Positions 25,125 to 58,965 of a stretch of DNA of 59,808 bases are shown piece by piece. The stretch is from IMG/VR virus record IMGVR_UViG_3300007512_000039, positions 1 to 59,808 of that record. One strand, written 5' to 3'. The stretch's first letter is position 1, and every line of letters starts with the position of its first letter. Source of the DNA: a virus. The notes under the pieces were generated by a model. It was not told the origin of the DNA and did no database searches. It saw only the letters and a list, made by a program, of their open reading frames with translations. A program made the translations under genes and the position numbers.

Positions 25125-25128
25125 CCCC

Positions 25129-26399: not shown

Positions 26400-26408
26400 G
26401 AGGCGTCC

Positions 26409-27203
26409 ATGAGTGAGGTGAAGGTACGCCGCCGTCAGATCTCCGTTGAGCGGGAAGACAACCCGATCATCTATGCCCAGCGGCTCTACGTTCAGTTCCT
26501 GCAAGGGCTTTTCAACTTCAACGCTACAGGCTGCCTTCATTGGGAGCCGGATCTCGACGCTACGGAGATCGTCATCAGGGCTGAAGCTCCTCTTGACATG
26601 AAGGTCGTAGGGAAGCGTCCGGCCATCACTGTCGTGATGGGCCCTTACCAGTTCGCGAACCTGGGCATCGACAACATGATGTACCTGCAGCCGCTCACAG
26701 AGCGACAGGTACGGTCAGACCTCATCAATGGTCATCTGGTCGTGTACTGCCTGGCCGAGAACGATCAGGTCGCGCAGTGGATTGCTCACATGGTGATCCA
26801 CGGAACACGGGTCAACCAGCGGCTCCTGGAAGGTCGTGGCGGCTTCCACCAGATTGCACGCCCCGCGCCTTCGGCAAACTCACCAAGCCCTCCAGGAGCG
26901 CTGGTACCCGGTGACCATCATGGACTGGTCATGGTCCAGGTGAACATCCCTTACAGCTTCCAATGGACATGGTCCACCGAGCCGAAATCTCCCTCCTCGG
27001 CTATGGACTTGGAGATGGTCACCAAGGAACGTCGTGCATCGGACTATGACTATCCTTCTCCGCAGACCTTGAAGAGGGTACACTTGTCCATGTCGACTAC
27101 CGACGTTCTGGTGCGCCGAGTGGGCACTACGGTGACTTCTACAGTCGCTGAGGGTGTGGAGGGGCTTCAAGCCGTGATAGCTTCAAAGAGCACGAGCGAA
27201 TAG
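26409..27203 (+). CDS. Probable tail-completion/neck protein, 264 aa
   Basis: AGGAGG precedes the ATG. The protein begins basic and has an alpha/beta core (PIIYAQRLYVQFLQGLFNFN, then EAPLDMKVVGKRPAITVVMG). It lies immediately before the tail sheath, where tail terminator or connector genes are common. The family is not certain; the role is inferred from position. Confidence 0.65.
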   Translation: MSEVKVRRRQISVEREDNPIIYAQRLYVQFLQGLFNFNATGCLHWEPDLDATEIVIRAEAPLDMKVVGKRPAITVVMGPYQFANLGIDNMMYLQPLTERQVRSDLINGHLVVYCLAENDQVAQWIAHMVIHGTRVNQRLLEGRGGFHQIARPAPSANSPSPPGALVPGDHHGLVMVQVNIPYSFQWTWSTEPKSPSSAMDLEMVTKERRASDYDYPSPQTLKRVHLSMSTTDVLVRRVGTTVTSTVAEGVEGLQAVIASKSTSE

Positions 27204-27212
27204 GAGTCCAGT

Positions 27213-30200
27213 ATGGCTTCGGAGAACAGGCCAGGCGTCGAGGTCGAGCAGAAGATCGCGTCGACTTCCACCGTAGTCGCGGCTCCCGATCTGGTGCCGC
27301 TGGTGGTTGGCGTTTGCCATCAGATCATCGAGGCCCTGGACAGCGACGGTGCTCTGAACTCCGACGCGAAGTACTCTGCCGAGCAGTACAACCAGGCGTC
27401 TCTCGCGATCCCGCAGGCAGACCTGCCGGACCCACGCGACAACATCGACGAGCTTGAAGTCGATGAGGGCGAGGTCAACGGGTACCTCTACTTCGGCGGT
27501 ACTCTGACGAAGCTCGATCGCGGGAGCAACGGCACAACGGGCTCTGCATTCCTCAAGCTCGCCAATCTCTCGACGCGTGCGGCCATCCGAAGTACGCTCG
27601 ACATCTCGGCCGGGCTCACCTTCTCCTCTACGGGTGATGCCTTCAACTTCTACCTCGACGTGGTGAACACGAGTTCGTCCACCGCAGTGCCTGTCGAGGT
27701 GGAGCTCTCAGGCTCGATGACCGCGGACGCGATCGTGGACGCGATCAACACCGCTGCCGGTGCCGACGTCGCAGAGCTCATCGACGATACCTACCTCCAG
27801 ATCTCCTCGCAGACCTACGGGGCAGTGTCCTCGGTCACCCTCCAGGCCAACAACGCTGGAACTCTCATCCTCTTCCAGACGGCAACCTTCACCAACACGG
27901 TGGAGTACCGTGTCGAGGGCTCAGGCTTCGTCGGCCAGGACGACGAGGACGGGGACACCTACACTCCTTGGATCGAGTTCTTCCGCGGCGGCTACTTCGA
28001 GGACGGTGCCGACACGACCTTCCCGGTCACAGGAACTACGACGCCCAGCACCACTGATGAGGTGTGGGGTGGTCTCATCGACCAGGATGACACGTTCTCC
28101 CCGGCCAAGGCAGCTGCCTTGGTCTACACCGGAACGAGTGCGGATGTGCCGCTGCAGGCCGCCACGACTTCTGTGCCGGGCGACCAGCTCTGGGCCAGTG
28201 GTGTCCAGGTCGGTGATGGAGAGATCATCAAGGTCGAGCAGTCCCGCTTCAAGATCGGGAAGCTCTCCACGACCAACTCCACCTTCGATGATGATGGTGT
28301 GCCGACGGTGCGTGTCTACGACACCATCGAGGTGGCGACCTTGCTACACGGTACTCCGTGGGCTCCGAAGTACGCCTACTTCGTAGCGGATGGTCTGGTC
28401 TTCGGAGAGATCACTCCCGAAGGTGAGGCCGCATCGGTCACAGGCTCGGAGACGGGTCTGGACGAGCGGAGCGCTTATGTGGTGTCGGGTTCCGACATCT
28501 CCTTCCCCCTTTCTGCCGGAGGCCTCACGCTCGAGTTTGCCGTGACGGAGGATGGAGAGGCTGGCGATACCGTCACCTACACGTTCACCTCTACGTTCAC
28601 TGACATCGGGGAGCTGGTTTCAGAGCTGGGCGATGCGGACGAGTTCGACCAGTTCACGGTGTCGGCTCACGGCGACTTCCGCCTGGTTCTTCAGACCACG
28701 AAGACCGGTGCCGATCAGGCCATCTCCATCAAGAGCACAGGTTCTGCCAACGGTGTCCTGGGCTTCTCGACAACGGCTGCAACGGAAGATGATGGCACGG
28801 ATGTCGAGTTCGCCACACAGGCGACGGTGACGGGTGCTCGCATCTCCCTTCCGCTCGAGAGCGAGGGCAGCTCGGCTCTGGACATGGTGGTCACGGACTC
28901 GAAGGGGACTCATACCCTGAGCGCGACGGGCGTGGACCTCACCGCAGGTACGCTCGGAGCCCTCATCGCATCCATCTCGGGTGCCTTGGGCGGAGACGGT
29001 ACGAGCACCGTTACCGACAACGGCATCCCAGTAGGCACGCTGTCTACTTCCGGAGATGGCGATGCGTCGGGGACCATCACCTTCACCACCACCGAGGGTG
29101 GTGCCAACGTGAGCGTCGAGATTCAGGCCATCGACGGCGATGATGGCTTCCGCCACTGCGGCTTCTTCGATGATGGCGGTGGCGAGTGGGCCCAGGTGGA
29201 TGGCTCGGCCCAGGTCTTCCCTCTCGACCTCACAGGGGGCGGGGGCGGGACCGCTCTGGACTTCGAGTATCACTACGACATCGGAGGTGCGGGAAGCACG
29301 TCTCTGGGTGGGACTGTCAACTTCACGGCCGTGGATGTCGACGATCTGGCGGAGAAGCTCAACGCAGAGGCGGCCATCACCGACTACTCCGGTGAGCGGG
29401 TTGTGTGGTTCGTGGCCAACGCGGATGACTCCATCTCGATCCGTACGGTTGAAGGCGGGACCAACATCCGCATCGAGATCAATACCGGTACTCCGGTTGG
29501 TCTCACGAACGGTGCCACGGACGATGGTACGGCGGCTGACAACGCGGACGCGGACGGCGCGGACGGCATCAAGGGAACGACTCTCGGGTTCACCCTCGAT
29601 GACAATCCCTACGTCTACGAGATCATCTTCTCCAGCAACTCGCTGGCCGATGCCATCGACGACATCAACGAGCTGGTGGACGGCTCCGGCGATGTGGCCT
29701 CCGAGACCTCCAGCGCACTCACTCTGACCTCCCTGCTCGAGGGTGCGGCTTCGGCCATCACCATCGAAGAGGTCGATGGAAGCGACACGCTCGGTCTCGA
29801 AGATGCTTCGGACACCGGTGCTGGACGTCCGAACCCGGACTTCTACCAGGACGACTCGGGTGTGGCGTACTTCGGCCCGAACATCCTGCGAAGCACGAGT
29901 ACAGGGATCCCGTACTCCCTGGAGTCTGCTCTCGCCGACATCTACATCGCGTACGAGGCTCTCCGTCTGGATGTGACTCCGTCGGCGAGCTCCCCGGCTG
30001 CTCTCGAGTTCGACAACACCTCGGACATCGAAGCCGCCATCGGTCCCATCTCGATCAAGAACCCCCTCGCACTGGGCATGTTCTTGGCGAAGGCCAACAC
30101 TCCCTCCAACTCGGTCACTGGTTTCGGTGTCGACGAGGCGACGGCTGCGGCTCCGATGGGTACCCTTGATGGTTGGGCACGGGCTCTGGAGTTCGCGGAG

Positions 30201-31340
30201 AGTCGCGAGGTCTTCTGTCTGGCTTCGCTCACGGATGACTCGTACATCCAGAGCTTGATCGGTACACACATCGGTTCGATGTCGAAGGCGACGAACCGTG
30301 GTGAGCGGATCGCGTTCATCTGGTCGGGGATTCCGACCCGCGACGTGGACACCGTGGTAGCGTCTGGCACCGATGGCGAGACCAACGGCACTGACGACAG
30401 CTTCAACCTGGATGTGAACCCGGCCTCGGATCTCATCGCCAACGGCCTGGACCCGACGGACCTGTCCTACGACGATCAGGTCTTCCTTCAGATCGTGGTG
30501 ACCGATGCAGGCGCGTCGGAGCTTCGCCGGTACAGCGTCTCCATCGCCAACGGCGTGGTCCTGACCCTGCGGACTTCCTTCGATGACGACGAGAACGAGG
30601 ACGGCTTCTTCACGACGGCCACCCTCGACGAGTCTCTCGAGAACGTGGATTGGACTCTCTACATCCGCGGTGAAGAGCTCCTGATCGCCGGGAGCTCGGT
30701 GAAGGACCTCAACGCCATCGCCCAGGCCGTCGGAGATGCCGCAGAGCCCTACGGCTCTCGCCGCATCTACTACATCGCCTGCGATGATGTCGAGACCAGC
30801 ATCGACGGTACGACCTTCAAGATCCCTGGCTACTACCTGTCCGCCGCGTATGCGGGCATGGCTGCAGAGCAGCTTCCGCAGCAGCCCTTCACGCACATGC
30901 CTCTGGCCGGCATCGGTCGGGTGTATGGCACCGATGACACCTTCTCTGAGGATCAGATGGACACCATGGCCGATGGCGGCCGGTGGGTCATGGTGAACCT
31001 CGGGGGTGTGGCGGTGTCTCGGCATCAGCGGTCTACGGACAACACCTCCGTAGAGACGATGGAGTTCTCCATCACCCGTGCCCTCGACTGGCTCTCCAAG
31101 GGCCTGCGGAAGACCAACCGGGTGTTCATCGGTCGGTCGGTCATCACTCCTGGTTTCCTGGACCAGCTCACGATGTCCAACGAGGGCTTCCTCGACTATG
31201 CGGAGCAGTTGGGCGCGGTTCAGAAGGCCGATCTCACCGAGCTGCTGCAGTCTGAGGAGCGGCCGGATACGGTCTTGGCAGAGGTCGAGACCCAGCCTTC
31301 GTACCCCTGCAACAAGATCTCGATTACCGTCGTCTCCTGA
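27213..31340 (+). CDS. Tail sheath protein, exceptionally long (1375 aa)
   Basis: The sheath contracts to drive the tube through the host surface. The N-terminus NRPGVEVE fits sheath proteins, and the last 250 residues have the usual sheath end (YYLSAAYAGMAAEQLPQQPF, GRWVMVNLGGVAVSR, SITRALDWLSKGLRKTNRVF). Between about residues 128 and 868 there are five related beta modules with a flagellin-IN-like pattern (for example TADAIVDAINTAAGADV, ADAIDDINELVDGSGD). They probably form outward-facing domains. AGGAGTC precedes the ATG. The length is about twice that of the well-known sheaths. Confidence 0.85.
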   Translation: MASENRPGVEVEQKIASTSTVVAAPDLVPLVVGVCHQIIEALDSDGALNSDAKYSAEQYNQASLAIPQADLPDPRDNIDELEVDEGEVNGYLYFGGTLTKLDRGSNGTTGSAFLKLANLSTRAAIRSTLDISAGLTFSSTGDAFNFYLDVVNTSSSTAVPVEVELSGSMTADAIVDAINTAAGADVAELIDDTYLQISSQTYGAVSSVTLQANNAGTLILFQTATFTNTVEYRVEGSGFVGQDDEDGDTYTPWIEFFRGGYFEDGADTTFPVTGTTTPSTTDEVWGGLIDQDDTFSPAKAAALVYTGTSADVPLQAATTSVPGDQLWASGVQVGDGEIIKVEQSRFKIGKLSTTNSTFDDDGVPTVRVYDTIEVATLLHGTPWAPKYAYFVADGLVFGEITPEGEAASVTGSETGLDERSAYVVSGSDISFPLSAGGLTLEFAVTEDGEAGDTVTYTFTSTFTDIGELVSELGDADEFDQFTVSAHGDFRLVLQTTKTGADQAISIKSTGSANGVLGFSTTAATEDDGTDVEFATQATVTGARISLPLESEGSSALDMVVTDSKGTHTLSATGVDLTAGTLGALIASISGALGGDGTSTVTDNGIPVGTLSTSGDGDASGTITFTTTEGGANVSVEIQAIDGDDGFRHCGFFDDGGGEWAQVDGSAQVFPLDLTGGGGGTALDFEYHYDIGGAGSTSLGGTVNFTAVDVDDLAEKLNAEAAITDYSGERVVWFVANADDSISIRTVEGGTNIRIEINTGTPVGLTNGATDDGTAADNADADGADGIKGTTLGFTLDDNPYVYEIIFSSNSLADAIDDINELVDGSGDVASETSSALTLTSLLEGAASAITIEEVDGSDTLGLEDASDTGAGRPNPDFYQDDSGVAYFGPNILRSTSTGIPYSLESALADIYIAYEALRLDVTPSASSPAALEFDNTSDIEAAIGPISIKNPLALGMFLAKANTPSNSVTGFGVDEATAAAPMGTLDGWARALEFAESREVFCLASLTDDSYIQSLIGTHIGSMSKATNRGERIAFIWSGIPTRDVDTVVASGTDGETNGTDDSFNLDVNPASDLIANGLDPTDLSYDDQVFLQIVVTDAGASELRRYSVSIANGVVLTLRTSFDDDENEDGFFTTATLDESLENVDWTLYIRGEELLIAGSSVKDLNAIAQAVGDAAEPYGSRRIYYIACDDVETSIDGTTFKIPGYYLSAAYAGMAAEQLPQQPFTHMPLAGIGRVYGTDDTFSEDQMDTMADGGRWVMVNLGGVAVSRHQRSTDNTSVETMEFSITRALDWLSKGLRKTNRVFIGRSVITPGFLDQLTMSNEGFLDYAEQLGAVQKADLTELLQSEERPDTVLAEVETQPSYPCNKISITVVS
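28491..29816 (+). repeat. Four tandem beta modules inside the sheath gene
   Basis: Modules at about residues 427-525, 542-650, 667-770 and 788-868 share the same order: a strand after an S/P-rich start, a helix of the type ELVSEL or DAIDDINEL, then strands and a Gly/Asp-rich end. A fifth, separate module lies near residues 128-235. Similarity is seen at the level of pattern, not identity. Confidence 0.55.
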
Positions 31341-31358
31341 CGCTCCTGAGGAGTACTC

Positions 31359-32117
31359 ATGTCCAACTACGCCAAGGCCCTCCAGAACGTCACGGGGTTC
31401 GTGCGCCGGTGGAAGAACAACCTCGCCACCCGCATCAACCGACGTCAGGACGACCTCATCAACTCGCTGGGTGAGGCCCTGAAGCTACTGGAGGCCCGCT
31501 CCGACAGCAACTACCCAGCGGTCACGTCCATCGATCTCAACCTGGACGATCTCTCGCTGGGTGGGACGGCGACGACGGGTCTCGTCATCACCGGTACCAA
31601 CTTCGTCGGCGACGCGGACACAGCCTCAGGCTCCACCTCGGACTCTGCCGGTCAGCTTGACTTCGTGGCGAACTACCCGGGCGAGCAGACCATCACGGTC
31701 ACCATCGACCTCTCGGACAATGGCGTGAGTGCCGATGTCGATGCCGGCACCGTCACGATCTCAATCGCAGGGACTGAGGATGCGGATGCGGTCATCGCTG
31801 AGATCGCCGCGCATGCCATGGCCAAGTACATGATCACGGCGACGTCTCCGGACGGTGCGGCCCTCATCGACACGGCCGAGACGGTCTCGGTGACCAACAC
31901 CACTGGTGTGGCTGACCCGGGTACGACCCCGGTCATGTACATCGGTTCTCAGAGCTTCTCCGGCTCCACTGCGGGCTTCGGTGTCACCTCTTGGTCGGAC
32001 ACGCAGATCGTCTTCGACATGGACCAGACGGCTCTGGGCACGGATGCGTGTCACCACCTTCGCCTGTGGATCGACGACGTCCTGATCCTCGAGCACCTGG
32101 TCCAGTTCTCCGCCTGA
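31359..32117 (+). CDS. Probable tail protein with IPT/Ig-like domains, 252 aa
   Basis: The N-terminal 50 residues are basic and helical. Two beta domains follow, the last resembling an IPT/TIG fold (MYIGSQSFSGSTAGFGVTSW, LRLWIDDVLILEHLVQF). GAGGAG precedes the ATG. Located between sheath and tube genes, it is likely a virion protein. Confidence 0.6.
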   Translation: MSNYAKALQNVTGFVRRWKNNLATRINRRQDDLINSLGEALKLLEARSDSNYPAVTSIDLNLDDLSLGGTATTGLVITGTNFVGDADTASGSTSDSAGQLDFVANYPGEQTITVTIDLSDNGVSADVDAGTVTISIAGTEDADAVIAEIAAHAMAKYMITATSPDGAALIDTAETVSVTNTTGVADPGTTPVMYIGSQSFSGSTAGFGVTSWSDTQIVFDMDQTALGTDACHHLRLWIDDVLILEHLVQFSA

Positions 32118-32167
32118 TGCAGGAGGCTACTGCTCCCGCCCCATCCCTCTGACCTGAGGACCTCCAG

Positions 32168-32869
32168 ATGAGTACTCTGTCTACCTGGAGCCCGTACACC
32201 AGCCACGTCCAGGGAGGCATGGTCGACGGCCGCTACATGAACGCGGCCTACACCCTGCTCGCTGCTGGTCCTCCGCGTCTGGCGAACGTCGGTGGTCCTT
32301 CGTTCCTGGCGGCCGCTCTGGCCGCGGGATCCTCCGCGTCGGACCAGATCGCGTACCCGTTGGGGGTCTTGCAGAACATCGCTCTCGGCCAGAGCATGAA
32401 CCTCTCCCGCGTGTGGGAGATCGGTTCAGAGCGGAGCTACTGGATTCCGGGCCGTGTCATGGGACAGCTCTCGCTGTCTCGCATCATGTACCACGGACCC
32501 AGCCTACTCCGTGTCCTGTGGGCGTACTACCAGGACCTGGTCCCACCGACCGTCGTCGCTTCGGTGTTCCCAAACCTGGGTGCAGCGACCGTCGCGAACC
32601 CGCACGATGTCATCATCCCGCCGGGCTACGAGAACGTCTTCCTCAACCTGGCCTCGGACCTGTTCAAGCAGCCGGTCGGTCTGATGATGATGCTCAAGGA
32701 CAACAACAAGGACACCCTCGGAGCCAACTACTTCGAGGCGGCCATGGTGCCGAACCACAACCTCGCGACGGACGCGATGGGTGCGGTCCTTCAGGAATCC
32801 GTCGGTGTCCAGTTCGAGCGGATGATCCCTGTCGCTACCAAGGTCGTGGGCCTGGTCTCCGGGCTCTGA
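32168..32869 (+). CDS. Tail tube protein candidate, 233 aa
   Basis: It lies two genes after the sheath, as tube proteins usually do. It is compact and strand-rich, with IALGQSMNLSRVWEIGSERS and GRVMGQLSLSRIMYHGPSL, a pattern seen in tube proteins, where strand pairs flank a loop. There is no signal peptide or membrane segment. GAGGAC lies upstream. The call rests on position and pattern. Confidence 0.6.
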   Translation: MSTLSTWSPYTSHVQGGMVDGRYMNAAYTLLAAGPPRLANVGGPSFLAAALAAGSSASDQIAYPLGVLQNIALGQSMNLSRVWEIGSERSYWIPGRVMGQLSLSRIMYHGPSLLRVLWAYYQDLVPPTVVASVFPNLGAATVANPHDVIIPPGYENVFLNLASDLFKQPVGLMMMLKDNNKDTLGANYFEAAMVPNHNLATDAMGAVLQESVGVQFERMIPVATKVVGLVSGL

Positions 32870-32905
32870 TCGGTAGGCTGAGTCTTCTCGGGATAGGGAG
32901 GAGGT

Positions 32906-33505
32906 ATGACCTCTCTGCCTGAGTTCCAGAGCTTCGCAGAGCACGTGAAGCAGGGCATCTTCCCGTCCGTTGCTACGCCTATGGCTCCCCAAGCCATCAA
33001 GACCCTGCGGAAGGTTCACAACCCTCTGACGCAGGCTCAGGGCCGTGCAACACAGGGTCAGGTAGCCACTGGCCTGCGTACTTCTGCAGACCAAGGGTTC
33101 GCTCGTAGAAGCATGCAGGGAACTGCACAGGCCAATGTGCGTGGCTCAGTAGCGAGTCCCACAGGAAGAGGCGGGACTTCCGCATTCGTCGCCCGCCCTT
33201 CGGCCAAGCCCATCGCCCCGCAACAGCCGAAGATCCCTGCGCCGAAGACTGCCTCGGCAGACCCTGAACTTCTCGAGGAGCTATTGAAGGTGGCGAGGAT
33301 GTCGGAGCGGGACCGTCGGCATCGATACTACATGCAGAACCGTCAGCGGATCCTGCAGCAGAACCGCCAGTACCGTCAGAAGAACAAGGCATCCATCTCT
33401 CGGAAGCAGAAGAGGTACCGCAAACAGGTGACCTCTGGCATGCGGAAGCAGAAGCGGCGCATCAACACTGGAGGCCACAGCTACCAGTACGGAGGTTGGA
33501 AGTGA
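32906..33505 (+). CDS. Unknown basic protein, 199 aa
   Basis: A strong ribosome site (GAGGAGG) precedes the ATG. The N-terminus SFAEHVKQGIFPSVATPM resembles that of the small protein at 16971. The middle is Gln/Arg/Ala-rich and disordered, with PKTASADPELLEELLKVARM. The C-terminus is extremely basic (Arg/Lys/Gln-rich), which suggests binding to DNA or RNA. A packaged virion protein is possible. Confidence 0.6.
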   Translation: MTSLPEFQSFAEHVKQGIFPSVATPMAPQAIKTLRKVHNPLTQAQGRATQGQVATGLRTSADQGFARRSMQGTAQANVRGSVASPTGRGGTSAFVARPSAKPIAPQQPKIPAPKTASADPELLEELLKVARMSERDRRHRYYMQNRQRILQQNRQYRQKNKASISRKQKRYRKQVTSGMRKQKRRINTGGHSYQYGGWK

Positions 33506-34089
33506 TCCCCTTCAACGCCTCCTTTGTGCACGAGCTCTCGAAGCTCGCCTCCTCGGACCCAGGCAAAGGGTGGGAGTTCTACGGTGATGGTCGTGAGCTC
33601 ATCGCCTACCAGAAGGGGAAGGCGGTCGAGGACATCGACATGACGGCCGTACGCGAAAGTGGAGGTCGCGTTCGGGTCATCATCCCGACCTCGGGCGGAG
33701 AGACACGTCTGGAGCCTCGGAAGAAACTCTTGGGGATCTTCAAGCGTTCCCCCAAGCGGGTACACGTCCCCTACGACAACTTCCGCCAGTTCGATGTCAC
33801 CCCCGGTATGGATCCGGCACTGAAGTCGGAGATGTTCAAGCTCTTGTGGAAGCGACCACGTGCGGCAGGGGTATGGGCTCCGGAAGGCTCCATGGATGCC
33901 TTCGCAGAGCAAGAGCTAAAGAAGAGAGGCACTGCACTGCCTTCTTCCGTGGCCCCTGGCCTCATGAAGAACGTACGCGGAGTGAAGGTCAAAGGCCTCC
34001 CGTCCCTCCGAGGTCCTGGCCTCCCGAAGGTGGCTCCGGCTGAAGGAACCAATCCCTTCAAGGCCAACCGACTCAAGATGAGTCAGTAG
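33502..34089 (+). CDS. Unknown virion-type protein, 195 aa
   Basis: A GTG at 33502 overlaps the previous stop (GTGA) and has GGAGG upstream. The N-terminus FVHELSKLASSDPGKGWEFY carries the recurrent motif. The rest is basic, with Pro-rich loops. It is the last gene of the plus-strand structural operon and overlaps the convergent gene end by 17 bases. No domain recognised. Confidence 0.6.
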   Translation: MIPFNASFVHELSKLASSDPGKGWEFYGDGRELIAYQKGKAVEDIDMTAVRESGGRVRVIIPTSGGETRLEPRKKLLGIFKRSPKRVHVPYDNFRQFDVTPGMDPALKSEMFKLLWKRPRAAGVWAPEGSMDAFAEQELKKRGTALPSSVAPGLMKNVRGVKVKGLPSLRGPGLPKVAPAEGTNPFKANRLKMSQ

Positions 34090-34342
34090 GCTTCTCGCCG
34101 AAGGCCTCCTTCAAGTCTTGAAGCCGCAGCTTCGTCGTCCGCTCCGCGCTCTCTTGCAGTACGACCTCTCTCCTCTCCATACTGAGAGGTTCTCCACTCT
34201 CCACGTCGTAGACCGCCTCATCCTTGATGGCCAAGTCTACGAGCATGTGGAGCACGTCCTGGTCCGAGATCTTCCTACCTCTGGAGGATAGCCGTCGTGC
34301 CGTCCTCCGGAGGTAGCGTGCGTGACGGTCCAGGAGCTTCAG
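34073..34342 (-). CDS. Unknown small protein, 89 aa, possible CTG start
   Basis: The open frame runs from a CTG at 34342 that overlaps the stop of the previous minus-strand gene (CTGA). The conservative alternative is a GTG at 34255 that gives 60 residues. The N-terminal part from the CTG is basic (LDRHARYLRRTARRL), followed by SDQDVLHMLVDLAIKDEAVY, similar in feel to ribbon-helix-helix proteins. The true start is uncertain. It overlaps the convergent gene end by 17 bases. Confidence 0.4.
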   Translation of the reverse strand: MKLLDRHARYLRRTARRLSSRGRKISDQDVLHMLVDLAIKDEAVYDVESGEPLSMERREVVLQESAERTTKLRLQDLKEAFGEKPTDSS

Positions 34343-34698
34343 TTGATGGGCCCCTGGGAGACGGCCTGCATCTGCCGCCGCCGCCGCATCGCCTGGTTCA
34401 CCATCTCGATCTTGGACTGCTCCACCATCTCCTTCAGTGCGGCTGAGGCGGCCTGGAGGTTGAGGCCAGAGTGCTGCGAGAGGGTAGTGACAAAGGCACT
34501 AAGGCCTTGCCCGATCATCTCCACACAGATCCGCGCCCGAGAGAGACCTTTCGGCTCCTCTGTAGTGACGAGGTTGACGGCGAAGCTCAAGGCATCGCCC
34601 TCTTCCATGATGTAGATGAGGGTGTAGGTCTCCAGCCCATACCGCTCGCGGAGCTCCTGCCATTCCGCGTTGAATGCGGCCTGATCTGTAGGTTTCAT
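34339..34698 (-). CDS. Unknown protein, 119 aa
   Basis: A soluble alpha/beta protein with an N-terminal helix, a short beta part (LIYIMEEGDALSFAVNLV) and a C-terminal helical stretch ending in Arg/Gln-rich sequence. Its start overlaps the end of the VWA gene by four bases, so the three or four minus-strand genes 34073-37624 form one operon. Function unknown. Confidence 0.65.
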   Translation of the reverse strand: MKPTDQAAFNAEWQELRERYGLETYTLIYIMEEGDALSFAVNLVTTEEPKGLSRARICVEMIGQGLSAFVTTLSQHSGLNLQAASAALKEMVEQSKIEMVNQAMRRRRQMQAVSQGPIN

Positions 34699-36569
34699 GT
34701 GCGTCTCTTGTTCAGATGACCCTCGGCCAGGATCCGTACCGCATTGGGTAGTGCGACTACGAGCTCATCCAGTGTGCCGAGGATTGAGTAGTTGAGTTGA
34801 TGGAAGGCCCTGTCGAATAGCTCTCGGGCCGTCTCTGGTTCCATGCTTCGCTGCCGGATGGCCAGTACCGCCAGAGGGATCTTGTCCTTCTGGACCCCGA
34901 GGATCTCTTCCTGTAGATCCTGGAGAGCGTCTCCTGTACTGTTCCGAACCCGGCAAGAGGTCGGCAGACCATCCGTCATCAAGATGATGGCCCTACGGCT
35001 GGGAGCCTCCTTGCCCCACGCATGCGCGACCTCCAGGGCCTGTACCATGGACGTACCGCCATGGGTGAGCCCCGAAGCTCCTACGGGAGAGCCCAGCTCC
35101 TCGAAGGCGAAGATGCAGTCCGAGAAGGCCCACATTGTGGCCTTGCTCTTGATGGCCCGGACAGCGTAGACCGCATCGGCCAGTGCCTGCTCCACGAGCT
35201 GAAGCTCGTAGCCGATCATGCTTCCGCTCACGTCGAAGAGGAACAGAAGCTCGAACTGCGCCACACGGAGCTCCTCTTCGTAGAATGGTCGACCCAGGTC
35301 TCCTGCACCGATCGCATCCAGTAGGGCTCCGGCATCAAGGTCCCCTTCGAAGGACATCCTCGATTTCTTCTTCATTCGGAGCTGGGACAGGTGCCTGCGA
35401 CATGCCTCTCCTGCGGCAGTGGTCTCCGGCAACGGCTTCACAGGCTGGACGAAGACCGTAGGGATCCCGCTGAGCTGTGCAGAGCCCATGAGCAGGTTCT
35501 TCTGCTCTTGTTCTGGCGCATCCTTGTTGAGAAGTGCAGCCTGCTGAGCCTGTTCGATCCGCTGGGCCATCGCTTTGCGACCTGCCTCGAGGATCTGCTC
35601 AAAAGGTGATGGTCCTCCGGCCTCCGGCTTATCCTTGGAAGCCTTCATCACCTTCTTCACACTCCCCAGGCCGTGCTTCGACTTCGGCCGTTGCCCTTCA
35701 GGAAGTGTGACATCCTTCTTCCCGATGGGCGACTGAGGAGCTGAGTCCTTGTGTGGACCTCTACGAGGGACGGCATCGCACAAGGATTGCATCTTTTTCT
35801 TGGCTTCCTCCTCCCGTTTCTTCTTCGCCTGTTGTCGTTTCTGCTTTGCACCTTGAGGCTTCCTTCCGGAAGAGGGAGGCTTCGGAGGCGGAGGCATGAA
35901 CTTTATGAGCTCATCAGCGATGTCGTCGATGAGCTGGCCAGTGATTGCCAGGCCAGCCACAGCATCCACCAGCTCTATGAGTCCAAGAGCCGTCTGCAGG
36001 GGCTGTACACATGCCTGGAAGTTGGCCGGAGCTTCAGGGACAGGGACACCGTTGGCCTCACTGCAAAGGAAGTCGAGGATGTTGGCGACCTTCGCCCTGG
36101 GATTCGCCTCGTACTTGCAGATGTCGTGACTCAGCTGCATCAGAAGGTCGGCACCTCCAGGGTAGAGCTCACCCCATAGACTGCACACCCTGTGGTCTTC
36201 GAGCATGTTCCACAGGTCAAAGCAGATCTTCTTGAGATGCGTCTCGAAGGGGTTGACTGTACCAGGCTTCACCCCTGCCCGGTTCATGAGGCGACTCACG
36301 AACGTGTCGATGAACACGTTCGTCAGATGTACATCCGTCTCGAAGAGCCAGTGCGAGAGCTCGTGCTCCGTGATGACGTATGACTCTTCCGAGTCCTCGT
36401 TGACCCAAATGGCCGTCGTGCAGTCGGTGTAGCCACCCTGCTCTGTGTTCTTCAGCTCTATGACCTTGCCGAGCATACCCTCGAAGGCCTTTACCAGAGC
36501 CTTCATACGGGCCAGGCGGTACTCCTTGGGACCCCCCATGGGTCCCAAATCCAGCGGCGGCCTGGTCAC
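34695..36569 (-). CDS. VWA-domain protein with HExxH-type motif, 624 aa
   Basis: The C-terminal VWA domain (about residues 440-600) has the metal-binding motif LFLFDVSGSM, then LTHGGTSM and ILMTDGLP. The N-terminal part has TEHELSHWLFETD (HExxH at about 69-73) and FDLWNMLEDHRV, like the N-terminal part of CobT-type VWA proteins. The middle is a Lys/Pro-rich linker. GTG at 36569 overlaps the stop of the MoxR gene (GTGA) with AAGGTG upstream; an ATG at 36539 is the alternative. MoxR-VWA pairs usually act as an ATP-driven remodelling machine. The target in the phage is unknown. Confidence 0.85.
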   Translation of the reverse strand: MTRPPLDLGPMGGPKEYRLARMKALVKAFEGMLGKVIELKNTEQGGYTDCTTAIWVNEDSEESYVITEHELSHWLFETDVHLTNVFIDTFVSRLMNRAGVKPGTVNPFETHLKKICFDLWNMLEDHRVCSLWGELYPGGADLLMQLSHDICKYEANPRAKVANILDFLCSEANGVPVPEAPANFQACVQPLQTALGLIELVDAVAGLAITGQLIDDIADELIKFMPPPPKPPSSGRKPQGAKQKRQQAKKKREEEAKKKMQSLCDAVPRRGPHKDSAPQSPIGKKDVTLPEGQRPKSKHGLGSVKKVMKASKDKPEAGGPSPFEQILEAGRKAMAQRIEQAQQAALLNKDAPEQEQKNLLMGSAQLSGIPTVFVQPVKPLPETTAAGEACRRHLSQLRMKKKSRMSFEGDLDAGALLDAIGAGDLGRPFYEEELRVAQFELLFLFDVSGSMIGYELQLVEQALADAVYAVRAIKSKATMWAFSDCIFAFEELGSPVGASGLTHGGTSMVQALEVAHAWGKEAPSRRAIILMTDGLPTSCRVRNSTGDALQDLQEEILGVQKDKIPLAVLAIRQRSMEPETARELFDRAFHQLNYSILGTLDELVVALPNAVRILAEGHLNKRRT

Positions 36570-37624
36570 AGGAGCTTCACCTTGGTGAGGTCGATGGCCG
36601 GGCGGAATCCGCTCCGCACGCGTGCTCGGAAGTCGGCCACGTAGCGGCCATCGAACTTCCCTTCCAGCAGCTTCAGAGCCTGTGCACGGTCTCCCAGACG
36701 ACAGAAGGAGTCCGCACACTGGATCAGGTCCCGAGTGCTCAGGGCGTAGCCGTACTTCCCGCCCCGTGTCTCCTTCGAGAGGGCCTGCAGACCCCGAACG
36801 AACTGCTTCGACTCCGCCGACTGGTCAGGCATGTGATCGAGGAGGATGGCCCGCTCGTCTGCCTCCGGCATGAAGTCCATCTGCACGAACTGGAACCGGC
36901 TCCGGAAGTCCTCGTTCAAGCTGTACGTTCCGCCGTAGTCAGGGTTCATCGTTCCCACGACCCACAGGCTACATGCGAAGGCGATTACCACACCCTCACG
37001 CACAGTGTCTCCCTCCTGCAAACCCTTCGAGAGGTTGCGAGTCGGGACCTCACGGACCCACACCTCATTGCCGATGCCGATGGCCACCTCCGTGGTGTAC
37101 TCGTCCGATGGTTCCAGGCTGACGATCTCACCGTTGCCAGGGCACAGCACCTCGCCGTTGAGTCGATACACGCGGCCGATGTGGTGGATGTCCACCTCTT
37201 GGCGGAAGTCCGCCAGAGAGTTCAGGACCTTCTGTGCCTCCTCATCCAGTGCGTTGATCTCCTCCAGCACCAGTACACACGCACCCGCCTCGTTCGCCAC
37301 GTCGATGGCCTGAGAGAGGACTCCCAGCACGAAGTATGACTCCTCGAGGCTCTTGAACACGAAGCCGCCCGTCAGGTGGCGGTCGGACGTCTTCCCAGTG
37401 CAGCTCTTCCGCAGGAACGGCAGACCCCGGCCGAAGGCCCACTGCTCCACGCCCATTGTCTTCCCCGCTCCTTTGGGCCCTTTCAGGATGAGCGGATGCC
37501 CGAACGACAGCTTCTCCAGAAGCTGAATCGTCCCGACGTCCCGGTACTCCGGGAACTCCCTCGCCTTGAGCTTGGACGTCTCCGTACGCCGGATATCCGT
37601 CCCGCCCAGTGTAGTTTTCTTCAT
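36566..37624 (-). CDS. MoxR/CobS-type AAA+ ATPase, 352 aa
   Basis: Walker A is GPKGAGKT (about residues 49-56), Walker B is CVLVLEEIN (about 116-124), and the sensor/arginine-finger region reads VVGTMNPDYGGTYSLNEDFR. This layout fits MoxR, CobS and McrB-like ATPases. The ATG at 37624 has GGAG 7 bases upstream and is preferred over 37636 and 37711. The downstream VWA gene is translationally coupled, so the two proteins probably work together in unfolding or remodelling a complex. CobS-like metal chelation is possible, but no cofactor genes are nearby. Confidence 0.9.
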   Translation of the reverse strand: MKKTTLGGTDIRRTETSKLKAREFPEYRDVGTIQLLEKLSFGHPLILKGPKGAGKTMGVEQWAFGRGLPFLRKSCTGKTSDRHLTGGFVFKSLEESYFVLGVLSQAIDVANEAGACVLVLEEINALDEEAQKVLNSLADFRQEVDIHHIGRVYRLNGEVLCPGNGEIVSLEPSDEYTTEVAIGIGNEVWVREVPTRNLSKGLQEGDTVREGVVIAFACSLWVVGTMNPDYGGTYSLNEDFRSRFQFVQMDFMPEADERAILLDHMPDQSAESKQFVRGLQALSKETRGGKYGYALSTRDLIQCADSFCRLGDRAQALKLLEGKFDGRYVADFRARVRSGFRPAIDLTKVKLL

Positions 37625-37697
37625 GGGTAACTCCATAGCTAACCATGCTTCTTGTGCCGCATCTGCACAGGGGTTTGCGTTTGTACTCACACCCTGG

Positions 37698-37703
37698 TAT
37701 GAC
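37698..37703 (+). promoter_or_regulatory. Possible promoter between divergent units
   Basis: TATGAC at 37698, with TTTGCG 18 bases upstream, could drive the plus-strand genes from 37710. The -10 is only 7 bases from the ATG. Inference. Confidence 0.28.
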
Positions 37704-37709
37704 TGGATC

Positions 37710-37979
37710 ATGGCAGAAGGATCACAGGAAATACCCCCAATCCTTCCTCCGGCACAGATGTCTGCCGAGGAGGCTCATCGGTACATGGGTGAGGTGATGG
37801 CGACGTCCCTGAAGAGATCGGGGGCGTTTGTTGTGCTTCGTAGACGGACCGGGGAGATTACCATCCTGGACCCCAAGATCCTGGATCATATCGACGATGT
37901 GGTGATGGCGGAATGCCTTCTGGCTTCTTGGACAGAGGATGAGGTGAAAAGGTACCTATCCTTGCGGGGTATGGGATGA
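37710..37979 (+). CDS. Unknown small protein, 89 aa
   Basis: The ATG at 37710 starts a helical acidic protein (SAEEAHRYMGEVMATSLKRS). No domain recognised. The ribosome site is weak, and the stop overlaps the next start by four bases. It is divergent from the MoxR gene. Confidence 0.6.
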   Translation: MAEGSQEIPPILPPAQMSAEEAHRYMGEVMATSLKRSGAFVVLRRRTGEITILDPKILDHIDDVVMAECLLASWTEDEVKRYLSLRGMG

Positions 37980-38284
37980 GCGGTCAGGTGATTTCGGTAG
38001 CGCATCGATTTGCACCACGTGCTGGTCGTGTGTTTACTGCTTCCTACATCGACATCGACTATCTGCGAGAGCGCTGTCAGCGGGCGCTCGACGAGTACAA
38101 CGTGGAGTGGAGGTTCCTCATCGCCTTTGACGTACCGGTAGGTACTCGTGTGGAGGAGGTGTTGAAGAAGCACATCCCGGCTCTCTCGTCGGTAGATGTA
38201 GAGCTTCAGGGCAAGAAGCACGTGGTGGCGTTCTCGACTAAGTCGCCCGAAGGTGTGAAGTACGGCTACTGCTTCACTCTCTGA
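37976..38284 (+). CDS. Unknown small protein, 102 aa
   Basis: An alpha/beta protein (FTASYIDIDYLRERCQRALD, WRFLIAFDVPVGTRVEEVL) without a known motif. It is coupled to the gene before it. The short gap after it carries GGAG for the methylase. Confidence 0.6.
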   Translation: MSGQVISVAHRFAPRAGRVFTASYIDIDYLRERCQRALDEYNVEWRFLIAFDVPVGTRVEEVLKKHIPALSSVDVELQGKKHVVAFSTKSPEGVKYGYCFTL

Positions 38285-56076: not shown

Positions 56077-56204
56077 GAGGAGATGGGCAAACGGTAAAGC
56101 CACCAGTCGGTATGGGCTGGGGACATCCCGAAACCGCCGTCGTCCGTCCGGAAGGGAGGCGGAGCACGGTGGACGGATTGGAGGTTCGACTCCTCCTCTC
56201 CTCA
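56077..56204 (+). tRNA. tRNA gene with about 50-base insertion, isotype unclear
   Basis: The acceptor GAGGAGA/TCTCCTC and the T arm GGAGG-TTCGACT-CCTCC are perfect, and the D arm is normal (GGC-AAACGGTAAA-GCC). Between D and T arms are about 80 bases. CCAG/CTGG could be an anticodon stem with a 10-base loop; TCCGTCC/GGACGGA forms a second long hairpin in the extra part. The anticodon cannot be fixed. Confidence 0.55.
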
Positions 56205-56211
56205 TTATTCT

Positions 56212-56472: not shown

Positions 56473-56527
56473 GCGGTAGTAGCTCAGGCACTTAGAGCGT
56501 CGGCTTGCCAAGTCGAAGGCCCCGGGT
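56473..56527 (+). tRNA. 5' piece of a split tRNA-Gly(GCC)
   Basis: It has acceptor half GCGGTAG, a D arm, and the anticodon arm TCGGC-TTGCCAA-GTCGA with anticodon GCC, then the variable loop and T-stem half CCGGG. It stops at the first T-loop base. The matching 3' piece (CCCGG, CTACCGC, A, CCA) is found at 57170. The break is in the T loop. Confidence 0.75.
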
Positions 56528-56532
56528 GTTTT

Positions 56533-56604
56533 GCGTACATAGCTCAACGGTAGAGCATTTGTCTGCCAGGCAAAGGGCTGCGGGTTCGAATCCCGCTGTG
56601 CGCT
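56533..56604 (+). tRNA. tRNA-Gly(GCC), intact
   Basis: The acceptor GCGTACA/TGTGCGC pairs (one T-G). The anticodon arm TTTGT-CTGCCAG-GCAAA gives GCC. The T arm GCGGG-TTCGAAT-CCCGC is perfect. It lies five bases after the broken tRNA-Gly 5' piece and has a different sequence in all its stems. Confidence 0.9.
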
Positions 56605-56615
56605 TCACCTCTTGT

Positions 56616-56644
56616 GCGGTAGGGGATACTTGGTTATCTACCGC
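56616..56644 (+). promoter_or_regulatory. Hairpin before HNH start, copy of tRNA-Gly acceptor
   Basis: GCGGTAG and CTACCGC pair around 15 bases. The stem strands are the same as the acceptor strands of the broken tRNA-Gly. The HNH ATG follows two bases later, and no Shine-Dalgarno site is outside the hairpin. It may control the endonuclease or be a trace of the insertion. Confidence 0.55.
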
Positions 56645-56646
56645 AT

Positions 56647-57168
56647 ATGGAAGAACAGAGAATATGCAGGTCGTGCGGAGATACAAAGCCCGTCTCAGAG
56701 ATGATTCCCATCAAAAGACGAGGAAAGGTTTACTATAGGAGGCAGTGCCGTTCGTGTGAGAGCAAACGATGCGCTGTACACCACGCGACGCCAAAATCTA
56801 AGGCGGCTTACAAGGCCCGTTCCGACATGCTCAAGGTAGAGCGCGCTGCTGGTCTGAATGTCGAGCGTTGGATTTACGAAGATGCTCGACGTTCAGACCG
56901 AAAGCGCGATCTGGAGAACGACCTGACGAAGGCATTTATCCGAGAGCAGATCGAGAAAGGGTGTAGCTATTGTGGAGAGGAGAGTATCCGTATGACTCTT
57001 GACCGGATCGATAACAGCATCGGGCACTTACAATCAAACTGCGTGCCTGCCTGTATTCGCTGCAACTGTACCAGAAGGCACATGCCTTACGAGGCATGGC
57101 TGATTGTGGCCCCGGCCATGCGGGAGGCGCGGTTGGCAGGTCTCTTTGGGGATTGGACTGGAAGATAG
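56647..57168 (+). CDS. HNH endonuclease, 173 aa
   Basis: The C-terminal half has CSYCGEESIRMTLDRIDNSI, then LQSNCVPACIRCNCTRRHMP, an HNH/zinc layout. The N-terminus has a second Cys set (CRSCGDTKPVSEM, CRSCESKRC) that may bind DNA. It likely nicks or cuts DNA for homing. Its stop is at the edge of the 3' half of a broken tRNA-Gly. The start follows a hairpin directly. Confidence 0.85.
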   Translation: MEEQRICRSCGDTKPVSEMIPIKRRGKVYYRRQCRSCESKRCAVHHATPKSKAAYKARSDMLKVERAAGLNVERWIYEDARRSDRKRDLENDLTKAFIREQIEKGCSYCGEESIRMTLDRIDNSIGHLQSNCVPACIRCNCTRRHMPYEAWLIVAPAMREARLAGLFGDWTGR

Positions 57169-57169
57169 T

Positions 57170-57185
57170 CCCGGCTACCGCACCA
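57170..57185 (+). tRNA. 3' piece of the split tRNA-Gly(GCC)
   Basis: CCCGG pairs with CCGGG of the 5' piece and CTACCGC pairs with GCGGTAG, both perfectly; A73 and CCA follow. Distance and order are as for a single gene with an insert in its T loop. Confidence 0.72.
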
Positions 57186-57189
57186 TTTT

Positions 57190-57248
57190 GGCGTCATAGC
57201 TCAGTCCTGATAAGGCTGAGGTCGTTGGTTCAACTCCAACCGGTATCA
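57190..57248 (+). tRNA. tRNA-Ile(GAT)-like gene lacking a D arm
   Basis: It is only 59 bases. TAGCTC is followed directly by the anticodon hairpin AGTC-CTGATAA-GGCT (anticodon GAT), then GAGGTC and a perfect T arm GTTGG-TTCAACT-CCAAC. The acceptor GGCGTCA/CGGTATC pairs poorly. It is probably a deletion derivative. Confidence 0.5.
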
Positions 57249-57256
57249 CTCTCTAC

Positions 57257-57331
57257 ACTGCCGTGGATCAATGGTAGATCGCCAGGCCCTCACCCTGGAG
57301 ACCGCGGGTTCGAACCCCGTCGGCAGTACCA
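57257..57331 (+). tRNA. tRNA-Glu(CTC)
   Basis: The acceptor ACTGCCG/CGGCAGT is perfect, and A73-CCA is encoded. The anticodon arm CCAGG-CCCTCAC-CCTGG gives CTC, with C in place of the usual T at position 33. The T arm is GCGGG-TTCGAAC-CCCGT. Confidence 0.82.
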
Positions 57332-57336
57332 CCTAC

Positions 57337-57424
57337 AACGCCGAATGCAAAGTGGATCGCGCGGCTGGGTTTTCATTCCAGTGCCCGTAAGGGGTAGGGG
57401 GTTCGAGTCCCCTCGGCGTTACCA
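57337..57424 (+). tRNA. tRNA with UUC anticodon and long variable arm
   Basis: The acceptor AACGCCG/CGGCGTT is perfect, with A73-CCA. The anticodon arm CTGGG-TTTTCAT-TCCAG gives TTC (Glu). The variable arm CCC-GTAA-GGG is of class II size, which is not normal for tRNA-Glu. The isotype charged in the cell is uncertain. Confidence 0.75.
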
Positions 57425-57433
57425 ATCCTATAT

Positions 57434-57482
57434 GTTGGCCGTAGCTCAGTCCGGTAAGAGCGCCAGGTTGTGGCCCTGGAGG
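57434..57482 (+). tRNA. 5' piece of a broken tRNA-His(GTG)
   Basis: It has an acceptor half, a D arm (TAGCTCAGTCCGGTAAGAGC) and the anticodon arm CCAGG-TTGTGGC-CCTGG with anticodon GTG. It then loses similarity after GGAGGTT; no T arm follows. A possible 3' remnant is at 58207. Confidence 0.6.
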
Positions 57483-57516
57483 TTTAAGAGAAATCTCGAC
57501 AAGCACCCGTGAATAT

Positions 57517-57588
57517 GGTACCTTTGGTGTAGCGGTAGCACGCCAGATTGTGGTTCTGGAGGCTCCGGTTCAAACCCGGGATGGTACC
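57517..57588 (+). tRNA. tRNA-His(GTG), intact
   Basis: The anticodon arm CCAGA-TTGTGGT-TCTGG gives GTG. G-1 and C73 are present, as tRNA-His needs. The T arm is TCCGG-TTCAAAC-CCGGG, and the acceptor GTACCTT/ATGGTAC has one mismatch. Confidence 0.85.
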
Positions 57589-57594
57589 CTTTTC

Positions 57595-58206
57595 ATGCCC
57601 CAGAAGAAGTCTGTTCCTAAGGTCTGTGAGGTGTGCGGAGACGTATTTCTTGTGCGGCCGGTGGACGCGAGACGGCATCCCTGCCGGTTCTGTAGTCGCT
57701 CCTGTAAAGGCAAGGCCCAGCCTCCTATAAGCAGAGGATTGACCGGAGAGGATAATCCGAACTGGAAAGGGGGGCTGACCTTCAGCAAGTCTACAGGGTA
57801 CTGGAGAGTCTTACAGCCCACACATCAGCGAGCAGACCATCTGGGGTACGTCAAGCGAGCGGACTTGGTACTGGAAGAGAAACTTGGGCGGCCTTTACTT
57901 CCCAATGAGATTGCGCACCACGTCAACGAAGATCGGGCAGATGACTCCCCAGAGAACCTGGAGTGCATGGACTATGGCGAGCACCGGCTGATGCACATCC
58001 AGCAGAGGGCAGAGCGTGCTCGGCAGTTAAACCCTCCGAAGCCGAAACAACCAGATCACCCCAGCAACCGCCGCTATACGTGGCCCTCGGATTCTGAGCT
58101 CCTCGAGATGAGGAAGACGATGAGCCTTCGACAGATTGCGGCCATAGTCGGCTGCGGCCATAAGACCGTAGATAGACGTCTCTCTCGTATTTCCTCCTCG
58201 AGATAA
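57595..58206 (+). CDS. HNH endonuclease with zinc finger and HTH, 203 aa
   Basis: The N-terminus has a Cys cluster (CEVCGDVFL, CRFCSRSCKG). The HNH_3-type core reads LPNEIAHHVNEDRADDSPEN and LECMDYGEHRLMH. The C-terminus has a helix-turn-helix (SLRQIAAIVGCGHKTVDRRL). The ATG is 7 bases after tRNA-His and no ribosome site is visible. Its stop TAA is followed by TCCCG, a 3' tRNA-like end, as in the Gly unit. Confidence 0.85.
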   Translation: MPQKKSVPKVCEVCGDVFLVRPVDARRHPCRFCSRSCKGKAQPPISRGLTGEDNPNWKGGLTFSKSTGYWRVLQPTHQRADHLGYVKRADLVLEEKLGRPLLPNEIAHHVNEDRADDSPENLECMDYGEHRLMHIQQRAERARQLNPPKPKQPDHPSNRRYTWPSDSELLEMRKTMSLRQIAAIVGCGHKTVDRRLSRISSSR

Positions 58207-58222
58207 TCCCGTCGCTCACCTA
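58207..58222 (+). pseudogene. Possible 3' tRNA remnant (His unit)
   Basis: TCCCGTCGCTCACC follows the HNH stop directly and resembles a T-stem plus acceptor end. CGCTCAC-C pairs only partly with the acceptor of the broken tRNA-His, and the 5' T-stem half is missing. Tentative. Confidence 0.35.
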
Positions 58223-58230
58223 CCTTTCTC

Positions 58231-58268
58231 GGGAGAGTGGTGTAACTGGCAGCACGTGAGGCTCTTCA
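58231..58268 (+). tRNA. 5' piece of a split tRNA (Lys-CTT-like)
   Basis: It has acceptor half GGGAGAG, D arm GTG/CAC, and anticodon 5' stem TGAGG with loop CTCTTCA, then it meets tRNA-Pro one base later. Joined to the 3' piece at 58929 it gives a full 72-base tRNA with anticodon CTT. The break is in the anticodon loop. Confidence 0.65.
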
Positions 58269-58269
58269 T

Positions 58270-58343
58270 GGACGGGTAGCTCAGCAGGCCAGAGCGTCCG
58301 GCTTTGGACCGGAAGGTGTGCGGTTCGAGTCCGCCCCCGTCTT
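58270..58343 (+). tRNA. tRNA-Pro(TGG)
   Basis: The acceptor GGACGGG/CCCGTCT pairs (one G-U). The anticodon arm TCCGG-CTTTGGA-CCGGA is perfect and gives TGG. The T arm is GCGG-TTCGAGT-CCGC with an outer mismatch. Confidence 0.88.
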
Positions 58344-58368
58344 CTCAAACCATGCAGCCGTGTTATAG

Positions 58369-58386
58369 CCATACAAAAGGGTATGG
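58369..58386 (+). promoter_or_regulatory. Hairpin just before the third HNH start
   Basis: CCATAC and GTATGG pair around AAAAGG. The ATG follows after TTCG. There is no free ribosome site. The placing is like the hairpin before the first HNH gene. Confidence 0.5.
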
Positions 58387-58390
58387 TTCG

Positions 58391-58936
58391 ATGTCTGAGT
58401 CTCAAAGGAAGAGAGACGTAGTTCGCCGGCTAAGAACGGAAGGCAAGAGCTACAAGGAGATTGCCGAAGCAACAGGGCTCACCAAGTCGACTATTGCATA
58501 CCATGCAAGAAGATTGGGAATACCAGCCCAACCCCAGCGCCGTGATTACCCCTGGAATGAAATCCAGAAGATGTATGAGAGTGGGGCAACTTATCGGGAG
58601 TGCGCGCAGAAGTACGGGTTCTCCCGTACTGCATGGGACACGGCAAAACGTCGAGGGCTTATACACCCACGGGAGAAGAGGAGGCCTGTTGAACTCTACT
58701 TCTCTTGGAGGAAGAAGCTGTCGTCAACGGCAAAGAAGCGCCTGTTCGATGAGGGTATGTTGAAAAAGGAGTGCTCTATATGCGGACAAGGACCTGTATG
58801 GGCTGGGAAGCCTCTCGTTATACAGATTGATCACATCAATGGAAACCCCGCGGACAATCGTCGTGAGAATCTACGGCCGGTGTGCCCGAACTGTCATTCT
58901 CAGACCCCGACGTTTTGCGGGCGAAACATCACCTAA
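58391..58936 (+). CDS. HNH endonuclease with HTH, 181 aa
   Basis: The N-terminus is a helix-turn-helix (SYKEIAEATGLTKSTIAYHA) followed by a second one (TYRECAQKYGFSRTAWDTAK). The C-terminal HNH core reads CSICGQGPVWAGKPLVIQID, HINGNPADNRRENL and PVCPNCHSQTPTF. The ATG at 58391 is used; the longer frame from 58304 runs over tRNA-Pro. Its stop is inside the 3' half of a broken tRNA. Confidence 0.87.
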   Translation: MSESQRKRDVVRRLRTEGKSYKEIAEATGLTKSTIAYHARRLGIPAQPQRRDYPWNEIQKMYESGATYRECAQKYGFSRTAWDTAKRRGLIHPREKRRPVELYFSWRKKLSSTAKKRLFDEGMLKKECSICGQGPVWAGKPLVIQIDHINGNPADNRRENLRPVCPNCHSQTPTFCGRNIT

Positions 58937-58965
58937 GGAGACTGGTTCGAACCCGGCCTCTCCTT
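58929..58965 (+). tRNA. 3' piece of the split Lys-like tRNA
   Basis: The anticodon 3' stem CCTAA, variable GGAG, T arm ACTGG-TTCGAAC-CCGGC (outer mismatch) and acceptor CTCTCCT are present. The acceptor pairs with GGGAGAG at 58231 along all seven positions (one G-U). Confidence 0.68.

Follow-up and report, generated by a model that had tools for sequence, protein, structure and literature searches.

Complete tRNAs and HNH endonuclease genes nested inside broken tRNA genes of an uncultivated tailed phage

The virus record IMGVR_UViG_3300007512_000039 is a 59,808-nucleotide (nt) fragment of an uncultivated tailed phage that encodes a terminase large subunit and a topoisomerase II large subunit, and the whole of this stretch (the window) was analyzed here. 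Near the fragment end, a transfer RNA (tRNA) cluster contains three tRNA-HNH units (56473-58965), in which an HNH endonuclease gene directly follows tRNA-Gly(gcc), tRNA-His(gtg), or tRNA-Gln(ttg), three of the ten tRNAs identified in the window by ARAGORN. In units 1 and 3, the complete tRNA and the HNH gene are nested together between the two halves of another, broken tRNA gene. These units are probably free-standing (intron-less) HNH homing genes that target tRNA genes and carry with them a diverged, usually same-isotype replacement tRNA. All parts of the three units lie on the + strand.

Unit 1 opens with positions 1-54 of a broken tRNA-Gly(gcc), a 5' piece (56473..56527) that ends at T54 of the T-loop. 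Five nt past this break begins a whole tRNA-Gly(gcc) (56533..56604; ARAGORN, with an Rfam tRNA score of 69 bits), followed by a predicted HNH (beta-beta-alpha-metal) endonuclease gene encoding 173 amino acids (aa) with an N-terminal zinc ribbon (56647..57168). The 3' piece of the broken gene (57169..57185) abuts the HNH stop codon, begins just before the last T-stem strand, and includes an encoded CCA. The two halves show 7/7 acceptor pairing, and joining them yields a canonical tRNA-Gly(gcc) with an ARAGORN score of 120.2, as compared to 120.0 for the intact copy. The conserved T-loop bases are absent from both halves, and splicing therefore cannot restore the tRNA. Unit 3 follows the same order. 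The 5' piece of its broken tRNA (58231..58265) has a Gln-like D arm and ends in the anticodon loop, a whole tRNA-Gln(ttg) (58270..58344; ARAGORN and Rfam) starts 4 nt past the break, and a gene for a 181-aa helix-turn-helix (HTH)-HNH homing-type endonuclease (58391..58936) has its stop codon overlapped by a 3' piece consisting of the anticodon 3' stem, T arm, and acceptor (58932..58965). The joined flanks score 118.5, with the break within the anticodon loop; the nearest tRNAs to the broken gene are a mix of Gln and Leu, and it looks Gln-like, although its anticodon is cut and not readable. In unit 2, the 5' piece of a broken tRNA-His(gtg) (57434..57484) extends to the variable loop, gives a partial Rfam tRNA match of 25.7 bits at 57441-57500, and retains a readable GTG anticodon. 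It precedes a whole tRNA-His(gtg) (57518..57589; ARAGORN and Rfam) and a 203-aa HNH endonuclease gene (57595..58206). A second IMG/VR contig (3300009128_000006) is identical to the locus, with 0 mismatches over 6.1 kb, and a DNA search of phage records gave no match.

For these joins, every cut point was tried in combining the sequence upstream of each whole tRNA with that from the HNH stop codon onward; the products were scored with ARAGORN, and 1,108 mispaired joins between loci, with intact tRNAs masked, served as the control. No mispaired join scored at least 110 (0/1,108), and the maximum, 109.9, was obtained with the 5' flank of unit 2. Because mispaired joins never reached 110 but did reach 109.9, units 1 and 3 are established as split tRNAs with a nested tRNA and HNH gene, and unit 2 is established only for its 5' piece. 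The initial annotation had described three tandem units sharing one order of 5' piece, whole tRNA, HNH gene, and 3' piece, a description that holds for units 1 and 3 (joins 120.2 and 118.5) and fails at the 3' piece of unit 2 (105.4), which is accordingly not upheld as a complete nested unit. Without masking, flank joining over all loci built many spurious tRNAs out of arms borrowed from intact ones, and was replaced by the masked joins with mispaired controls. Profile hidden Markov models for tRNA halves detected too few 5' halves to be useful, and homology of gap remnants to neighboring tRNAs barely exceeded mispairing, except at loci L009, L166, and L039.

The broken and nested tRNAs align poorly, with about two thirds of aligned positions identical, yet in units 1 and 3 pairing between the halves is preserved. 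Divergence would therefore have preceded insertion, with the whole tRNA coming from elsewhere, which argues against an old duplicate made in place. Where the anticodon of the broken tRNA can be read, it is the same as that of the whole tRNA in both cases (GCC in unit 1 and GTG in unit 2), in agreement with the earlier observation that two of the three whole tRNAs match the broken one. Among 1,148 pairs of adjacent tRNAs in such arrays, 22% share an isotype and 4.1% share an anticodon, and the chance of two matches out of two is ∼0.002. The anticodon match favors replacement over a passenger origin, albeit in few cases. Under this reading, the mobile piece would extend from the 5' end of the complete tRNA to the HNH stop codon. 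Its arrival would split the resident tRNA gene, in the T-loop for unit 1 and the anticodon loop for unit 3, leaving the halves as dead flanks, and the phage would keep that tRNA through the carried allele, which is diverged, usually of the same isotype, and presumably immune to the enzyme. The HNH protein would cut the tRNA gene in a related phage infecting the same cell, and copying or capture of the donor segment of immune tRNA plus HNH gene may follow during repair. A more far-reaching version, which we put forward tentatively and consider possible rather than probable, is that the units are a natural cleave-and-rescue homing drive in which unrelated HNH genes have each become associated with a copy of the destroyed tRNA that is itself immune to cleavage. 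The tRNA and HNH gene would then move as one cassette between the tRNA genes of related phages, with replacement instead of splicing.

All three HNH reading frames are intact. The unit 1 protein matches phrog_1035 ('endonuclease VII', 4.9e-22) without a Pfam match, and its AlphaFold model (predicted local distance difference test score of 94) yields Foldseek matches to PacI (probability 1.00) and a Gme HNH nickase, confidently predicting an HNH fold near PacI. In an alignment of this family (A1), an invariant Arg occupies the position usually held by the first catalytic His of HNH motifs. The unit 2 protein matches HNH_3 (1.5e-4) and phrog_20891 (2.6e-19), and that of unit 3 matches Sigma70_r4_2/HTH (1.7e-8), HNH_3 (9.4e-6), and phrog_10822 (6.3e-29). 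The sequence matches, and for unit 1 also the model, point to the HNH/beta-beta-alpha-metal nuclease fold found in free-standing homing endonucleases, and not to the GIY-YIG fold of the SegB family. As the initial annotation had noted, the proteins are not close copies of each other: pairwise BLASTP E values are at least 0.005, each protein falls in a separate PHROG family, and, judged by sequence, the three are unrelated families. Only the unit 3 protein is related to the T5 heg proteins (28% identity to hegA over 97% of the protein, E 4e-11), and its relatives are found in tRNA arrays.

A scan for HNH genes lying between complementary tRNA pieces identified one other case, L035, in an independent phage, where a 5' Arg-like piece, a whole tRNA-Arg(tct), an HNH gene, and a 3' piece occur in this order, and the join scores 113.7. 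In units 1 and 3 and in L035, 4-9 nt separate the break from the start of the nested tRNA, and the 3' piece starts at the HNH stop codon. The L035 HNH protein differs from those of units 1-3, which are themselves unrelated, and these four proteins bear out the proposal that the arrangement arose or was acquired more than once. Across all HNH genes in phage tRNA arrays, other placements are commoner, namely tight between tRNAs, overlapping the 5' end of the next tRNA, or beside a one-sided remnant. HNH genes of the unit 1 and unit 3 families adjoin tRNAs in 101 of 183 distinct loci. In 52 of the 84 loci with a downstream tRNA, that tRNA starts -53 to +15 nt from the HNH stop codon; the HNH gene overlaps its 5' end in 23 of the 84, and in 8 the stop codon coincides with tRNA positions 8-10. 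Compared with the rest of these arrays, the surroundings of HNH genes more often contain tRNA fragments, both 3' fragments (19/79 vs 23/226) and 5' fragments (11/87 vs 10/226), an overall enrichment of ∼2.5-fold for families 1 and 3. Interruption of tRNA genes by HNH genes in other geometries is common, including in T5 relatives. A search with an alignment of T5 hegC and hegD recovered only 4 loci. Individual loci showed a repeated 3' end (L009), an exact 29-base-pair copy of the tRNA-Leu(tag) 5' end before the HNH gene with the whole tRNA after it (L166), and 5' Leu-like remnants (L039, L221, and L225). In L007 and L162, a tRNA remnant lacking a D arm seems to take its 5' acceptor strand from the final codons of the HNH gene.

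T5-like phages offer natural comparisons. The phages HdH2, ESCO40, and S131 have an intact tRNA-Leu(taa) and are HNH-free there, whereas Kenya-K20 has, after an HNH gene, 36 nt that exactly match the 3' end of tRNA-Leu(taa) and its downstream spacer, and in T5 hegA is followed by only CCTACCA of this tRNA and the same spacer. HNH genes therefore do insert into tRNA genes and destroy them. At the hegD site, T5 and IrisVonRoten carry tRNA-Gln(CUG)/(UUG) alleles very different from those of the HNH-free SP15, ESCO40, and EC100 between the same flanks, and WP85 has T5-type tRNA-Gln alleles with only an HNH 3' stub. Comparison of these alleles suggests a pattern that fits linked replacement of same-isotype tRNAs. 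In T5 itself (25000-38000, L237), the 3' ends of hegC and hegD encode the 5' ends of tRNA-Ser2 and tRNA-Gln2, the latter annotated as a pseudogene.

Several observations weigh against the interpretation of the units as homing genes that bring a replacement tRNA. The candidate 3' piece of unit 2, right after the stop codon (58207..58224), is not better than chance, with its join of 105.4 lying within the mispaired range (to 109.9) and its acceptor pairing of 6/8 having a chance probability of 0.08 at a single offset, rising to 0.35 when the best of five offsets is taken. The uninterrupted target seen in gene-free relatives for the related HNH genes of T5-like phages was not seen for this phage: of two contigs with the same terminase (protein 100% identical), the locus is exact in one and unmatched in the other, and no HNH-free relative and thus no empty site was found among the terminase-sharing contigs. 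Nesting is also rare. Of ∼50 HNH-tRNA loci whose flanks could be used, only L035 was added, and no nested case with a join of at least 110 came from a second survey, which covered 54 further HNH-bearing inter-tRNA intervals, such that the proposed class of tRNA-HNH cassettes recurs but is not widespread. Other HNH insertions in T5-like phages just lose the tRNA, so that rescue is not obligatory, and the K20 tRNA(CAT), considered as an HNH-linked replacement, was not upheld, as the allele is also present in phages in which the search matched no HNH gene. Finally, L211 is mismatched, with a Leu-like 5' piece and a nested tRNA-Gln.

This last mismatch, probably joined by L154 (Glu-like piece, nested Gln), is what would be expected if HNH genes do home into tRNA genes but carry the whole tRNA as a passenger, a neighbor captured in sloppy repair and not selected as a replacement. 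HNH genes do adjoin many isotypes, and neighbors that share an isotype are common in such arrays (22%). The matches of anticodon in both readable units and the Arg-like pieces around tRNA-Arg in L035 stand against a same-anticodon background of 4.1%, and we regard a passenger tRNA as a rather unlikely explanation.

An improbable alternative is endonuclease-driven unequal recombination, of the sort brought about by SegB in T6, which would have duplicated and rearranged an ancestral tRNA-HNH unit, with broken ends as the residue. In the SegB case, a tRNA-Tyr/segB unit is amplified by way of microhomology shared by the 5' end of the tRNA and the 3' end of segB (PMC13096335), and HNH 3' ends overlap tRNA 5' ends in 23/84 loci. 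Unlike tandem copies, however, the three HNH genes show no relationship, and the whole tRNAs are alleles diverged from the broken ones. The still complementary acceptor stems of units 1 and 3 could also mean that the halves are a functional split tRNA, released from either side of the nested tRNA by RNase P and Z before being rejoined, but this is very improbable given the T-loop bases missing from both sides in unit 1, the lack of an RNA ligase among the large window proteins scanned, and a whole tRNA of the same anticodon that makes rejoining unnecessary. HNH-bearing group I introns in tRNA-Leu do occur in such arrays (L043:2593-2777 by an RF00028 match, which also served as the positive control for detecting an intron beside an HNH gene, and L196 by eye only), but a degenerate intron is scarcely credible here, as an Rfam search at E<=1 found none in the window and returned only tRNA-like matches and chance families for this part, placing the HNH genes outside any self-splicing intron, and as the insert contains a whole tRNA and unit 1 is broken in the T-loop. 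Equally hard to credit is an integrase-type island, for while tRNA 3' ends are common attachment sites of integrative elements, each insert is one tRNA plus one HNH open reading frame without an integrase or att repeats, and no second copy of the broken halves lies elsewhere in the unit.

The proposed cleave-and-rescue behavior has its closest parallel in synthetic drives, in which a target is likewise destroyed and an immune copy carried, although those drives are engineered; to our knowledge, and in the searches made, they have no natural counterpart. The two halves of the split nrdA of Aeh1 work as subunits. The gene responsible, mobE, is a free-standing homing gene inserted in a conserved gene, as here (PMC2988022), but it interrupts a protein gene and carries no replacement copy. 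HNH genes of group I introns also reside in tRNA-Leu, where splicing keeps the gene functional, in contrast to the intron-less units. The T5 enzymes F-TflI, F-TflII, and F-TflIV (hegC, hegD, and hegA) resemble the units in lying in a tRNA array with stop codons that abut or overlap tRNAs, with hegA at the tRNA-Leu(UAA) site of HNH-free relatives and hegD beside divergent tRNA-Gln alleles, but they have no complete tRNA between complementary halves, and only 7 nt of tRNA-Leu remain. SegB of T4/T6, which is found enriched close to tRNAs and amplifies tRNA-Tyr together with its own gene (PMC13096335), is similarly a free-standing homing gene in a tRNA cluster that spreads or amplifies tRNA genes (PMC13096335, PMC2988022), but it has the GIY-YIG fold and is inserted between tRNAs rather than inside one. 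For T-even free-standing homing endonucleases, the cleavage site is apart from the insertion site (PMC2988022). Earlier surveys noted HNH genes in tRNA arrays and suggested that they spread or diversify tRNAs (PMC5966550, PMC6409571), while the literature searched contained no description of a homing gene that lies within a tRNA gene and is accompanied by a complete spare. The units would thus represent intronless homing, a known kind, in their manner, with the complete spare tRNA inside a broken tRNA as the new feature. If true, an intron-less selfish endonuclease could enter an important gene free of cost by bringing a spare, a natural parallel to engineered cleave-and-rescue drives that would help explain the wealth of HNH genes, tRNA fragments, and divergent tRNA alleles in phage tRNA arrays. 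These arrays are a front line against tRNA-cutting defenses, and their reshuffling therefore matters.

Two further tRNA-like features lie close to the units. Directly after the 3' piece of unit 1, positions 57189-57248 resemble the 3' portion of a tRNA-Ile(gat) (Rfam tRNA, 28.1 bits) with no 5' acceptor to match, and may be left over from another insertion. Upstream of the units, a tRNA-like gene missed by ARAGORN (56077-56205) has a fully paired acceptor (GAGGAGA/TCTCCTC, 7/7), an intact T arm, and a variable region of ∼60 nt, and it folds well (z of -3.2).

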